A stretch of 64,000 nt of DNA, taken from assembly GCF_013391105.1 (NCBI RefSeq), contig NZ_CP058335.1, positions 2,852,001-2,916,000 on the forward strand, written 5' to 3'. Source of the DNA: Natronomonas salina. Its GTDB lineage: Archaea > Halobacteriota > Halobacteria > Halobacteriales > Haloarculaceae. This document shows, piece after piece, positions 18,180-26,918 of this stretch. Numbering within the stretch: the stretch's first letter is position 1; each line of letters opens with the position of its first letter. A model generated the notes under the pieces. That model made no database searches. It saw nothing but the letters and a program-made list of their open reading frames with translations, and was not told the DNA's origin. Position numbers and translations under genes: made by a program.

Positions 18180-19625
18180 GTGTCCCGGTATCCGAACCCC
18201 TTCCGGCTGGCCATCCTCGCGATCGGCCTCGCCCTGGCGCGGGCGGGCCTGATCACCGAGTCGCGGGCCCGCCGGACGACGGACCTGGCGTGGCCGCGCA
18301 TCGTCACCGGCCTCGCCCGGATGTCGAAGAACGCCGTCGACGTGGCGATGGTCGGGGTCGCCGTCGGTTCGGCGGCCATCGCGGGGGTCGGCATCGCCGG
18401 GCCGTTCTGGGGGCTCGCCTTCTCCATCGGCGGCGGCGTCGCCGGCGGGACCATCGCGCTCGTCAGCCAGCGGTTCGGCGCCGACGCCCACGAGGACCTG
18501 GGGCTGGCGGTCCGCTCCAGCGTCTTCCTCGTCGTCGCCGCCAGCCTCCCGGTCGCCGCCGTCTTCTGGACGTTCTCGACCGAACTCATCGGCCTGCTGA
18601 GCAGCGACCCCGAGGTGGTCCGCCTCGGGGGCGACTACCTGCAGGTGGTCGGCCTCGGCGTCCCGTTCGCGGGCCTGAACCTCGTCGGCAGCCGCGTCCT
18701 CGTCGGCTCCGACGACGCCTACACGGCGATGGTGCTGCGGGCGGGCGGCGCGGTCGCCAACGTCGGCATCAACGCCCTCCTCATCTTCGGGCTCGGGATT
18801 GGCGTCGTCGGCGCCGCGATGGGGACCGTCCTCTCGAACGTCGTCGTCACGGCGGCCTTCGCCATCGGTCTCACCGCCGGGCGGTTCCCGGGGGCGGGCG
18901 CCTTCCCCGTCACCGTCGACCCGTTCGGTGACTACGTCGACCCCGGGACGATCTCCGACCTGGTCGCCATCGGCCTGCCGGTGATGGGCCGGAACCTCGC
19001 CTGGACCGTCGCCGAGTTCCCCATGTTCGCCATCCTCGACGTCTTCGGCCAGGACGTCGTCTCGGCGTTCGTCATCGCCCGCCGCGTCTGGGGGCTGATG
19101 AACACCCCCGGCTGGGGGTTCGGCCTCGCCTCCTCGAGCCTCGTCGGCCAGGAACTCGGCACCGGCGACGAGGCGACCGCCGAGGCCTTCGGCCGCGAGA
19201 TCATCCGCTTCTCCGTGGCCGTCTACCTCGTCTTCGGCGCGATCGTCTTCGTCTTCGCCGACCCCATCGTGACGCTGTTCGTCGACGACCCGACCGCCCC
19301 GGAGATCCCGCTGGCCGTCGACCTCGTCCGGGTCGCCTGCGCGGCCATCGTCTTCCAGGGGGTCTCCGGCGGCGCGGCCGGCCCGCTCGACGCCGCCGGG
19401 GACACCCGGTGGCCGTTCGTCAGCCAGGCCGTCGGCATGTTCGGCTGCTCCATCCCCCTCACCTTCCTCGGGGCGACGACGCCGCTCGGCATCTACGGGC
19501 TCTACCTGGCGTTCCTCGCGGAGACGTCGGTACCGGCGGCGCTCAACTACTACCGGTTCGACAGCGGGAAGTGGAAGCGCGTGAGCCGGGCGTACCGCCC
19601 CGAGGCCGGCGTCGCCGACGACTGA
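18180..19625 (+). CDS. MATE family multidrug/metabolite exporter
   Basis: 481 residues, 12 hydrophobic segments. GIAGPFWGLAFSIGGGVAGG, then VSQRFGADAHEDLGLAVRSS, and the second-half repeat FGLASSSLVGQELGTGDEAT show the internal two-fold MATE repeat. These are Na+- or H+-driven antiporters that expel drugs and organic cations. Start is GTG 18180: the N-terminus SRYPNPFRLAILAIGLALAR is typical for haloarchaeal members, and the operator spacing agrees. Confidence 0.93.
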   Translation: MSRYPNPFRLAILAIGLALARAGLITESRARRTTDLAWPRIVTGLARMSKNAVDVAMVGVAVGSAAIAGVGIAGPFWGLAFSIGGGVAGGTIALVSQRFGADAHEDLGLAVRSSVFLVVAASLPVAAVFWTFSTELIGLLSSDPEVVRLGGDYLQVVGLGVPFAGLNLVGSRVLVGSDDAYTAMVLRAGGAVANVGINALLIFGLGIGVVGAAMGTVLSNVVVTAAFAIGLTAGRFPGAGAFPVTVDPFGDYVDPGTISDLVAIGLPVMGRNLAWTVAEFPMFAILDVFGQDVVSAFVIARRVWGLMNTPGWGFGLASSSLVGQELGTGDEATAEAFGREIIRFSVAVYLVFGAIVFVFADPIVTLFVDDPTAPEIPLAVDLVRVACAAIVFQGVSGGAAGPLDAAGDTRWPFVSQAVGMFGCSIPLTFLGATTPLGIYGLYLAFLAETSVPAALNYYRFDSGKWKRVSRAYRPEAGVADD

Positions 19626-19703: not shown

Positions 19704-20552
19704 ATGACGACCGACGAGGAGCTCCGTGTCGCCGCCGACGCGCTGGGCGAGTCGGTACTCGTCCTCGGCTGCGGCGACGCTGGCGAGGCCGCCGCGACGG
19801 CGGTGGCCGAAGCGGACGTCCCCGCCACCGACGACGCCGCGACGCCGGACGCGGTCGTCCTCGCGGTCGACGGGGCGACCCCGCCGGAGGCGCTCCCGGA
19901 GTCGGTCCCGGAGGCCCCGCTCGTCGTCGCCGTCGTCGCGCTGCCGCACCGGCCCGACCCCGGCGAGCGCGACCTGCTGGCGGCGCTCGCCGAGCGCGTC
20001 GACAGCGTCGTGCTCGCGCCCGGCGACGACGCCGCGGCGCTGACCGACGCCGTCGGCACGCTCGTCTCCGTCGTCCGCGACCCCGGCTTCGTCAACCTCG
20101 ACCTCGCCGACGCCCGGACGCTGCTCCGCCCCGTCGACCTCGCCGCCCTCGGCGTCGGCTCGAGCGAGGAGGGTGCGCCGGAGGACGCCGCCGCCGCGGC
20201 GTTCGCGTCGCTGCCGGCGGGCGTCGAGACCGACCCCGCCGACGGCGTCCTCGTGGACCTGCTCGGCGGCCCCGCGATGAGCGTCGAGGACGTCAGCGAC
20301 GCGGTCACCGCCGTCCGGGGCCGCGTCGGCCCCGACGCCCACGTCATCTGGGGCGGCGGCGTCGACGACGACCTCGCCGAGACCGTCCGGGTGCGACTCG
20401 TCGTCGCCAGCGTCGCGAACGTCCGCGCGGCGCCCGGCGACCCCTGCCCCCGGTGTGCGTCGTCGCTGGCGGCGTACTCGCTGGGCGGCCGGACGACCCT
20501 CTCCTGCGAGCACTGCGGGTTCGCCGGCGTCTCGGTCAGGCTCCGGGAGTGA
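19704..20552 (+). CDS. Reduced FtsZ/tubulin-like protein with C-terminal zinc ribbon
   Basis: 282 residues. Residues about 18-37 (VLVLGCGDAGEAAATAVAEA) look like the FtsZ T1 nucleotide loop. Residues 72-83 and 98-140 follow the FtsZ order, including a T7-like NLDLAD (Asn131, Asp133, Asp136). The C-terminal FtsZ domain is visible in GVLVDLLGGPAMSVEDVSDA and VIWGGGVDDDLAETVRVRLV. The part holding the T4 glycine loop (GGGTG) is missing, so GTP binding is unlikely. Cys248, Cys251, Cys268 and Cys271 form a zinc ribbon. No other frame supplies the missing part, so it is not a simple frameshift. The role is unknown; it might modulate FtsZ or CetZ filaments (inference). Confidence 0.75.
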   Translation: MTTDEELRVAADALGESVLVLGCGDAGEAAATAVAEADVPATDDAATPDAVVLAVDGATPPEALPESVPEAPLVVAVVALPHRPDPGERDLLAALAERVDSVVLAPGDDAAALTDAVGTLVSVVRDPGFVNLDLADARTLLRPVDLAALGVGSSEEGAPEDAAAAAFASLPAGVETDPADGVLVDLLGGPAMSVEDVSDAVTAVRGRVGPDAHVIWGGGVDDDLAETVRVRLVVASVANVRAAPGDPCPRCASSLAAYSLGGRTTLSCEHCGFAGVSVRLRE

Positions 20553-23663: not shown

Positions 23664-24977
23664 TCAGACCACGTAGCAGCCGGGGCCGGTGGTGAACTGG
23701 TTGCTGTAGTTCTCCTGGCTGTCCGTGTCGCCGCCCTCGCCGGCGGACGTCCCGGAGTCGCCGCCACCGCCGGAGTTCGACATGTCGTTGCCGCCCTCGA
23801 CGGGGACGACCGCCGAGTTGTTGCTGTCCGCCTGGTGCTGGCGGTTGGTGTCGCTATCTTCGCCGTTGCCGCCCTTCTTGACGTCCTGGTTGCGCTGGCT
23901 GTTCGTGTCGCCGCCGTCGCCGGCGGTGGTGTTGTCGCTGCCGAGCGAGCCGGCGAGCGAGTGACCGTTCAGCAGCAGCGCGGAGACGACGTCGCTGTCG
24001 CCGTTGGACTGCTGGCTCTGCTGGCTCGACTGCCCGCCGCAGTCGCCGCCGTTGGTCTGCCAGTTCTCGTTGTACTGGGTGCCGGTGTCGCCGCCGTCGC
24101 CGGCGTGGGTGTCGCTGCTGCCGATGGCGAGGGCACCGGAGTTGCCGTTGCCCGCGGCGGCGTCGACGACGTCGTTGTCGCTATTGGACTGCTGGCTCTG
24201 CTGGTTGGCGTCGCTGTCCGAACACTCGCTGCCCTGCGCGTTGTCGTTCTCCTGGTTGCCGGTGTCGCCGCCGTCGCCGGCGTACGTGTCCTCGCTCAGG
24301 AGCGCGACGGCCAGCGAGTTGCCGTTCAGCAGGTCGACGTCGGCGACGTCGTTGTCGCTGTTGGACTGCTGGCTCTGCTGGTTGGAGTCGCCCTCGCGCT
24401 GGTTGTACTGGCCGTTGTCGTTCTCCTGGTTCCCGGAGTCGCCGCCGTCGTCGCCGTGGGTCCCGTTCCCGCCGACGGCGATGACGACCGAGTTGCCGTT
24501 GAGCGCGTCGGCGTCGACGGCGTCGTTGTCGCTGTTGGACTGCTGGCTCTGCTGGTTGGAGTCGCCCTCCTCGCTGCCGTCGACGTCGTCCTCGTCGTTC
24601 GTCCGGTTGTCGTCGACGGTGGGCGACTCGAGCGTCAGGTTCTGGTCGCCGAGGCCGATGGTCACTGAGTTCCCGGAGCCGACGTTGGGGTCGACCGGGT
24701 CGTCCTCGACGTTCTCCTGGGTGTTGGACTGGTCGGCACCGTCGTCGCCGTCCTTGTCCTTCGACCCGTCCTGATCGCCGGCCGAGTCGTCGCCCGTCGT
24801 CCCGAGGGTCTCGCTACCCGACGTCGTCGCGTCCTCGAGCGACGCATCGTCCAGTTGCGCGTCCTGTTCCTCGCCGTCGGTATCGGTCAGCCCGACGCCC
24901 GCCACCGGCGTCGCGAGGACGCCGACGATGGTGAACACCGTGACTGCGATTACCAGTACGTTACGTTTGTTGTTCAT
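23664..24977 (-). CDS. Secreted Asn/Gln/Ser-rich repeat protein (paralogue A)
   Basis: 437 residues from ATG 24977 (MNNKRNVLVIAVTVFTIVGV), a Sec-type signal peptide ending near residue 28. An acidic linker leads to a unit shared with paralogue B (QENVEDDPVDPN, NLTLESPTVDDN). Five repeats then begin near residues 139, 197, 256, 315 and 376; each has NQQSQQSNSDND, a hydrophobic segment after NGNS, and DGGDTxxQxN. The last is degenerate and ends GPGCYVV. Three Cys (about 252, 313, 434) are absent from the equivalent repeats of B. The pattern suggests a stacked β-solenoid or amyloid-like surface fibre (inference). Upstream element at 25026. Confidence 0.8.
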   Translation of the reverse strand: MNNKRNVLVIAVTVFTIVGVLATPVAGVGLTDTDGEEQDAQLDDASLEDATTSGSETLGTTGDDSAGDQDGSKDKDGDDGADQSNTQENVEDDPVDPNVGSGNSVTIGLGDQNLTLESPTVDDNRTNDEDDVDGSEEGDSNQQSQQSNSDNDAVDADALNGNSVVIAVGGNGTHGDDGGDSGNQENDNGQYNQREGDSNQQSQQSNSDNDVADVDLLNGNSLAVALLSEDTYAGDGGDTGNQENDNAQGSECSDSDANQQSQQSNSDNDVVDAAAGNGNSGALAIGSSDTHAGDGGDTGTQYNENWQTNGGDCGGQSSQQSQQSNGDSDVVSALLLNGHSLAGSLGSDNTTAGDGGDTNSQRNQDVKKGGNGEDSDTNRQHQADSNNSAVVPVEGGNDMSNSGGGGDSGTSAGEGGDTDSQENYSNQFTTGPGCYVV

Positions 24978-25025
24978 GTGGCAAGTATCCACCAGCTTAT
25001 CGGTTATCCCATCAAAAAGGGGTTA

Positions 25026-25306: not shown

Positions 25307-26869
25307 TCAGTTCCCGATGGACTGTTCGTTGGTGTTGTTCTGGACGTTGCTGTCGCCGCCGTCGCCTGCGGAGCCGGAACCGCCTTCGACCTCCTGGTCG
25401 TTGAGTGCCTCGACGGGCACGACAGTGTCGTCGCTGTCCTGGTCCTGGCTCTGCGAGTTGGTGTCGTCGCCGCCGGACTGCTCGTTGCTGTTGGACTGGG
25501 TGTTGGTGTCGCCACCGTCGCCGGCGGTGTTGTTCTCGCCGCCGAGTCCGATCGCGGCGCTGTCACCGTTCAGCAGGCTCGCGCGGACGACGTCCGTGTT
25601 GACGTTGGACTGCTGACTCTGCTGGTTGGCGTCGCCGTCACCGCCGCTGGACTGCTCGTTGCTGTTGGACTGGGTGTCCGTGTCGCCACCGTCACCGGAA
25701 GACGTGTCGCTGCTGCCGATGGCGATGTTGCCGGAGTTGCCGTTAGCCGCGGCGGCCTCGACGACGTCGTTGTCGCTGTTGGACTGCTGGCTCTGCTGGT
25801 TGGAGTCGCCGCTGCCGTCGCTGGACTGGCTGTTCGAGTTCTCCTGGTTACCGGTGTCGCCACCGTCGCCCGTGGAGACGTTGTCGCTGAGGACCGTGAC
25901 AGCCAGGGCGTTGCCGTTCAGCAGGTCACCGTTCACGACGTCGTTGTCGCTGTTGGACTGCTGGCTCTGCTGGTTGGAGTCGCCGCTGTTGCCGCTGGAC
26001 TGCTCGTTGCTGTTCTCCTGGTTGCCGGAGTCGCCACCGTCGCCGCCGTTAGAACCGCTGGCGCCGACGCCGACGAGGATCGAGTTACCGTTGATCGCGT
26101 CGAGGTCTGCGGCGTCGTTGTCGCTGTTGGACTGCTGGTTCTGCTGGTTGGAGTCACCGCCCGAGCCGCTCTCGGAGTCGGTGTTCGACTGGTTACCGTC
26201 GATGGTGGGTGACTCGAGGGTCAGGTTCTCGCTACCGAGCGCGACGGTCACGGAGTTCCCGGAGAGGAGGTTCGGGTCGACGGGATCGTCGTCCAGGTTC
26301 TCCTGGGAGTTCGACTGGGTGACGTCGTCGCCACCGTTGTCGCCGTCACCCTTGTCGCCGTCACCGTTGTCACCGGTGCCGTCGTCACCGTCGCCGTTGT
26401 CACCGGTACCGTCGTCACCGTCACCGTCGCCGTTATCGCCGGAGCCGTCGTCGCCGTCACCGGTACCGTCGTCACCGTCGCCGTCGCCGTTATCGCCGGT
26501 GCCGTCGTCACCGTCGTCACCAGTTCCATCATCGCCGGTGCCGTCGTCGCCGTCACCGGTACCGTCGTCACCGTCGCCGTCACCGTCCTTGTCCTTCTCG
26601 CCGTCCTGATCGCCGGTACCGTCGTCGCCGTCACCGGTACCGTCGTCGCTATCGTTGCTGCCGTCGTCGCACTCGCAATCGCCGTCTCCGGCCGTGCCAG
26701 CCGTGGCGGCGGTGCTGGATGCGCCGCCGTCATCTTCGAGCTGTTCGTCGCCCGATTCGTTCGTGTCTTCCGTCAGTGCGATGCCGATTCCTGTCACCGG
26801 GGCTGCCAGCATCCCGATGACCGTGGCCGCTGCAATCGCGAGTACCAGTAGGCCTTGTCGTTGGTTCAT
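25307..26869 (-). CDS. Secreted Asn/Gln/Ser-rich repeat protein (paralogue B)
   Basis: 520 residues from ATG 26869 (MNQRQGLLVLAIAAATVIGM), with a Sec signal peptide ending near residue 28. Residues 61-182 are an extreme low-complexity tract of Gly, Asp, Thr and Asn (DDGTGDGDDGTGD type), possibly a flexible or Ca2+-binding spacer. The shared unit follows (QENLDDDPVDPNLLSGNSVT, NLTLESPTIDGN). Five repeats begin at about 239, 297, 355, 413 and 469 (58-residue period); each contains NQQSQQSNSDND, NGN(S/A), DGGD(S/T) and QxNSNxQ. Only two Cys (65, 67) occur, both in the spacer. Probably an extracellular fibre or matrix protein; function not known. Confidence 0.8.
   Translation of the reverse strand: MNQRQGLLVLAIAAATVIGMLAAPVTGIGIALTEDTNESGDEQLEDDGGASSTAATAGTAGDGDCECDDGSNDSDDGTGDGDDGTGDQDGEKDKDGDGDGDDGTGDGDDGTGDDGTGDDGDDGTGDNGDGDGDDGTGDGDDGSGDNGDGDGDDGTGDNGDGDDGTGDNGDGDKGDGDNGGDDVTQSNSQENLDDDPVDPNLLSGNSVTVALGSENLTLESPTIDGNQSNTDSESGSGGDSNQQNQQSNSDNDAADLDAINGNSILVGVGASGSNGGDGGDSGNQENSNEQSSGNSGDSNQQSQQSNSDNDVVNGDLLNGNALAVTVLSDNVSTGDGGDTGNQENSNSQSSDGSGDSNQQSQQSNSDNDVVEAAAANGNSGNIAIGSSDTSSGDGGDTDTQSNSNEQSSGGDGDANQQSQQSNVNTDVVRASLLNGDSAAIGLGGENNTAGDGGDTNTQSNSNEQSGGDDTNSQSQDQDSDDTVVPVEALNDQEVEGGSGSAGDGGDSNVQNNTNEQSIGN
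26324..26689 (-). repeat. Gly-Asp low-complexity coding tract
   Basis: About 366 bases made of short GTCGTCACC/GCCGTC-type units in many imperfect copies encode residues 61-182 of paralogue B. Tracts like this expand and contract by slippage, so length may vary among strains. Confidence 0.8.
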
Positions 26870-26918
26870 GTGGGAGATAGTCCATTCGATTCTGCGTATA
26901 TCTGACAAAAGTGATTTC

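Follow-up and report, generated by a model that had tools for sequence, protein, structure and literature searches.

A zinc-ribbon-bearing FtsZ paralog of Halobacteria with conserved T7 residues and lost GTP-binding loops

FtsZ hydrolyses GTP only where the T7 loop of one subunit meets the GTP of the next one, which makes it difficult to examine either half of the active site on its own in the living cell. In S. aureus FtsZ, residues N208, D210, and D213 contact the GTP site of the neighbouring subunit and hold the attacking (catalytic) water (PMC8936486). Current models have T7 exposed at the plus end of FtsZ filaments and GTP at the minus end (PMC8936486, PMC11938149). The structurally mapped FtsZ modulators SulA, MciZ, MinC, and MipZ target the bottom face, and ligands of the top face are expected to promote nucleation and stabilisation (PMC11938149). 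Archaeal FtsZ binds SepF via its C-terminal GID tail (PMC8178401). In a published survey, members of the superfamily were sought with the GTPase domain as the query (PMC9871819), so that a family without this domain such as the one described here would be missed; our literature search of open-licence papers revealed no description of such an FtsZ paralog.

In this study, we analysed a stretch of 64,000 nucleotides of the Natronomonas salina genome (NZ_CP058335.1, positions 2,852,001 to 2,916,000), referred to as the window, which harbours a gene for a shortened FtsZ paralog (Table 1). The same genome encodes an ordinary FtsZ1, an ordinary FtsZ2, and one CetZ at other sites. A first-pass annotation, made from the sequence alone, had described the product as a shrunken FtsZ-like protein fused to a zinc ribbon, and its positions for the gene, for T7 residues Asn131, Asp133, and Asp136, and for the Cys4 ribbon (248-271; Cys248, Cys251, Cys268, and Cys271 in our analysis) agreed exactly with ours.

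Table 1. Gene and protein features of the FtsZ paralog, with positions in the window.
Feature	Position	Strand	Remarks
FtsZ paralog gene	19704..20552	+	282 aa + stop; ATG at 19704, stop ends 20552
Residues 17-27, SVLVLGCGDAG	19752..19784	+	Vestige of strand S1 and loop T1 of FtsZ, by alignment
Residues 73-81, LVVAVVALP	19920..19946	+	Counterpart of FtsZ strand S5
Residues 110-125, shortened FtsZ H7 central helix	20031..20078	+	Guanine-stacking Phe/Asp positions gone
Residues 128-136, T7 loop GFVNLDLAD	20085..20111	+	Asn131, Asp133, Asp136 invariant in 29/29 members
Residues 147-237, FtsZ C-terminal domain	20142..20414	+	PF12327, E 3.8e-13; Trp216-Gly217 invariant
Residues 248-272, CPxC...CxxCG zinc ribbon	20445..20519	+	Replaces FtsZ linker and SepF-binding tail; conserved in all members

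Pfam scans of the paralog revealed FtsZ_C (PF12327; 50 bits, cut-off 27), a domain that was matched in all 27 family members scanned, and no match to the tubulin/FtsZ GTPase domain PF00091. Accordingly, a PF00091 search of the genome led to FtsZ1, FtsZ2, and one CetZ, the paralog not being among the matches. The NCBI ftsZ model TIGR00065 reached 55.7 bits against a cut-off of 295.2 and covered residues 112-239 only, and the best solved relative in a sequence search was M. jannaschii FtsZ (E 8.6e-17, residues 112-238); residues 1-110 were left unaccounted for by plain sequence search. Alignment of the family profile with the archaeal FtsZ1 profile extended over residues 3-247 (probability 99.85, E 1.3e-30). 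An AlphaFold2 model based on 27 sequences (mean pLDDT 88, pTM 0.83) retrieved FtsZ as the first and best match among solved structures with Foldseek (E 1e-16), and superposition with VIA-align placed residues 1-242 of the model on residues 23-354 of M. jannaschii FtsZ (Z 22.9, rmsd 3.8, 242 aligned). According to this model, the whole two-domain FtsZ fold is present with a reduced N domain, and profile-profile alignment and structural superposition together describe a whole FtsZ fold whose GTPase domain has been shortened by about 80-90 residues. Both the HMM comparison with FtsZ/tubulin families and the superposition on FtsZ had been proposed as checks in the first-pass annotation; they came out in favour of FtsZ and also bore out the order of motifs it had recognised, together with its T1-like and LVVAVVALP strands. 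Its estimate of about 90 absent residues including the GGGTG loop was right as to the loss of T4 and had to be widened to about 80-90 in size, while its proposed FtsZ/CetZ homology was narrowed to FtsZ, with FtsZ1 as nearest relative, and abandoned for CetZ, as matches were to FtsZ families only. No GID tail was found, the C-domain being followed by the ribbon and about ten further residues. Based on the missing GTPase domain, a score below the equivalog cut-off, and the missing SepF-binding tail, the paralog falls outside canonical FtsZ.

When the family profile was run against 391 sampled genomes of Halobacteria, 29 of them proved to contain a family member besides ordinary FtsZ. All members were found at E 5.5e-63 or better and were separated by a clean gap from the next matches (E 2.3e-41 and worse), which were canonical FtsZ. 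They belong to the genus of the window (6 of 11 genomes), g20 (14 of 46, with Halorubrum alkaliphilum as one named record), g3 (5 of 24), g9 (1 of 4), g82 (2 of 2), and g33 (1 of 1), and no member was detected outside Halobacteria in a 294-genome sample of the phylum at E 1e-44. An origin from plasmids or viruses was considered and rejected, since plasmid records gave ordinary FtsZ only and viral contigs contained no member, with no PHROG match of note. The family is chromosomal and monophyletic (support 99), and FtsZ1 sequences surround it, with the CetZ of the same genome far away, in a tree whose root is one CetZ and in which the exact attachment is unsupported; nearest by sequence to the paralog is FtsZ1 of the same genome (34% over 123 residues). 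Reading frames were intact in the 29 genomes of six genera, with no internal stops. As judged from dN/dS values of 0.15-0.44 in eight close pairs of members, the family is under purifying selection and evolves fairly fast.

For analysis of individual residues, 48 archaeal FtsZ1/FtsZ2 sequences were aligned with the 29 family members and comparison groups, and columns conserved to at least 95% in FtsZ were selected, leading to 91 conserved columns. Only five of these were unchanged in 29 of 29 members, namely the Asn, Asp, and Asp of T7 and a Trp-Gly pair in the C-domain. Conserved columns of T3, T4, T6, H2, and H7 were retained at 1-13% (mean retention of 0.13 for T4, 0.07 for T3, and 0.01 each for T6 and H7), and the T1 Asn was absent from 29 of 29 members. 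The combination of an intact T7 with a lost GTP loop, first noticed in the Natronomonas salina protein, is hence a property of the whole family. With sequence kinship ignored, the three T7 residues would all be part of this set of five by chance with a probability of 8e-5 if every column is counted and, again ignoring kinship, of 1.5e-3 when only the C-domain side is considered. From its sequence, the paralog is predicted to be devoid of GTP binding, GTPase activity, and polymerisation of its own. The T7 Asn and first Asp could be retained for a fold or partner reason specific to the family.

A phylum-wide FtsZ_C search revealed two further kinds of half-FtsZ. Genus g114 on the methanogen side of Halobacteriota (L094, L114-L119) harbours a protein of FtsZ2 origin, about 272-301 aa in length, that has lost the T4 loop and is nested in FtsZ2 (support 88). 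Its T7 NLDLAD (NxDxxD) is retained in 6 of 6 sequences from six genomes (L114-L119). In the one g114 genome that was counted (G433), the derivative stands beside a single canonical FtsZ, and a GTPase-domain search of six g114 genomes resulted in one strong FtsZ-like and one weaker CetZ-sized match each. The predicted structure of this pseudo-FtsZ was too poor for use (pLDDT 49), and its reading is thus based on sequence. Given the Halobacteria family and the derivative nested in FtsZ2, loss of the GTP site with retention of T7 arose at least two times. The mirror image was identified in family f19 (Methanosarcina-type; L093, L095, L096), in which a third FtsZ largely keeps T4 and has T7 N and first D replaced, NxDxxD being changed to HxNxxD or HxAxxD. 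As these third FtsZs do without both residues, T7 Asn and Asp are dispensable for the FtsZ fold.

Taken together, we suggest that the paralog is a dedicated FtsZ1-side relative whose T7 face binds to the GTP face of FtsZ1 or FtsZ2, where it would cap filaments, nucleate them, or stimulate hydrolysis, a reading to which we assign a probability of roughly 0.5. Incapable of binding GTP, such a protein would make no filaments by itself and would still offer an FtsZ bottom face in which the catalytic T7 is intact. This face would dock on the top face of FtsZ1 or FtsZ2, where GTP is bound, either on free subunits or at the filament end exposing GTP, which current models identify as the minus end. 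As only its bottom face is functional and its top face is gone, the paralog could be added at a single site, atop an FtsZ subunit showing its GTP. Once docked, it would complete a composite GTPase site and, for lack of a top face of its own, terminate or template the filament. The ribbon in place of the SepF tail would favour attachment to another partner, protein or nucleic acid, rather than to the membrane via SepF. Judging from its sequence features, the paralog thus probably acts on FtsZ filament ends and forms no filaments alone, and the idea of a filament cap or regulator, already put forward in the first-pass annotation, gains strong indirect support from the strict conservation of T7. 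Only tentatively, and with more doubt than confidence, we regard it as the first FtsZ paralog of prokaryotes specialised for the GTP-exposing (minus) end of FtsZ filaments, either as a nucleator or as a GTPase-activating half-site cap with a gamma-tubulin-like function; such a half-enzyme would have arisen once more from FtsZ2 in the methanogen-side genus.

The ribbon of the paralog matched several zinc ribbons of Pfam, though weakly. Four genomes were checked for the same ribbon, and each had it in one further, otherwise unrelated protein (L004/L134, L133, L135, one per genome), where the near-identical copy lies close to the N-terminus. The corresponding protein of the window genome has 146-149 aa and carries a C2H2-like finger, too.

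The neighbours of the paralog gene were compared in 18 relatives. In the window, a gene for a MATE-family transporter (18180-19625, +) ends 78 bases upstream on the same strand. In L046 and L047, which belong to two further genomes of this genus, it adjoins the paralog as well, though not in other lineages. Four genomes of the window's genus without the paralog kept the MATE gene and showed no paralog remnant. A functional operon was rejected, because the MATE adjacency is confined to this genus and Halorubrum-type and g3 genomes have other neighbours. In four genomes of genus g3 (L035-L038), the paralog is located between levansucrase-type (GH68) and invertase-type (GH32) genes, and a gene for salactin, an actin homolog identified in L037, lies about 5 kb away. 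Further downstream in the window, two adjoining paralogous genes are found (23664-24992 and 25307-26908, both -), the product of the first being secreted-looking and acidic with repeated QQSQQSNSDND-type units. No division gene recurred near the paralog among the 18 relatives, and in the lineages examined its gene neither adjoined sepF nor formed part of a conserved division cluster. Based on this missing linkage and on its accessory occurrence (29 of 391 genomes), the paralog is not a core division factor.

These observations on ribbon and neighbourhood bear on the best-surviving alternative, according to which an FtsZ-fold protein was recruited away from FtsZ, e.g., as a zinc-ribbon regulator that binds nucleic acid or another protein, with T7 serving as a mere structural helix cap. 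The gene is accessory, occurs patchily, and is not linked to division genes, which would fit such a role, as would the similarity of the ribbon to haloarchaeal CPxCG zinc-finger proteins, the additional ribbon protein in each of the four genomes, and the example of Brz, a small haloarchaeal protein of the CPxCG kind that regulates transcription (PMC2253796). Still, we consider it rather unlikely, as T7 N, D, and D are the sole invariants besides Trp-Gly among the 91 columns and as paralogs that keep the fold have lost T7 N and D. Less probable again is a sequestering inhibitor, whose T7 face would pair with free GTP-bound FtsZ monomers instead of filament ends and halt division under some stress. 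The identical retained surface would do for this purpose, and SulA and MciZ demonstrate that assembly stops once a single polymerisation face is blocked (PMC11938149); however, known inhibitors sit on the bottom face, ligands of the top face are predicted to promote nucleation or stabilisation rather than inhibition (PMC11938149), and no stress context was seen in the gene neighbourhood. That the gene is a decaying ftsZ copy heading for loss, as the 80-90 missing residues, the patchy presence, and the lack of remnants in neighbouring genomes without the gene might imply, is refuted by frames intact across six genera, dN/dS well below 1, and the invariance of T7 and ribbon cysteines.

Compared with known systems, the paralog shares with archaeal FtsZ1/FtsZ2 the fold over residues 1-242, the C-terminal domain, and the NxDxxD of T7, but differs from them by the loss of T3, T4, T6, the guanine-binding residues, PF00091, the linker, and the GID tail and by the added zinc ribbon. 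CetZ and other tubulin-superfamily paralogs of Halobacteria are likewise extra paralogs beyond FtsZ1/FtsZ2; CetZ, however, keeps its GTPase domain, reads VVDASE at T7 in the same genome, and is not the closest relative of the paralog. The CPxC...CxxCG ribbon is common to Brz-type CPxCG proteins, which are small and stand-alone, whereas here it is fused to an FtsZ core. Gamma-tubulin, a paralog within the superfamily that is devoted to a filament end, serves as a working analogy only, as it binds GTP and sits in ring complexes, of which none is known for the paralog. A T7-only family beside intact FtsZ1/FtsZ2, together with mirror paralogs keeping the GTP half only, would represent natural separation-of-function proteins. 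If the inferred mechanism holds, the paralog would be an FtsZ end regulator in function and is predicted to act on a polymerisation face of FtsZ like MciZ, SulA, MinC, and MipZ. None of these four is a paralog of FtsZ, however, and all of them bind its bottom (T7) face, whereas the paralog would bind the top face, and a protein presenting a T7 face would thus target the other end of the filament.
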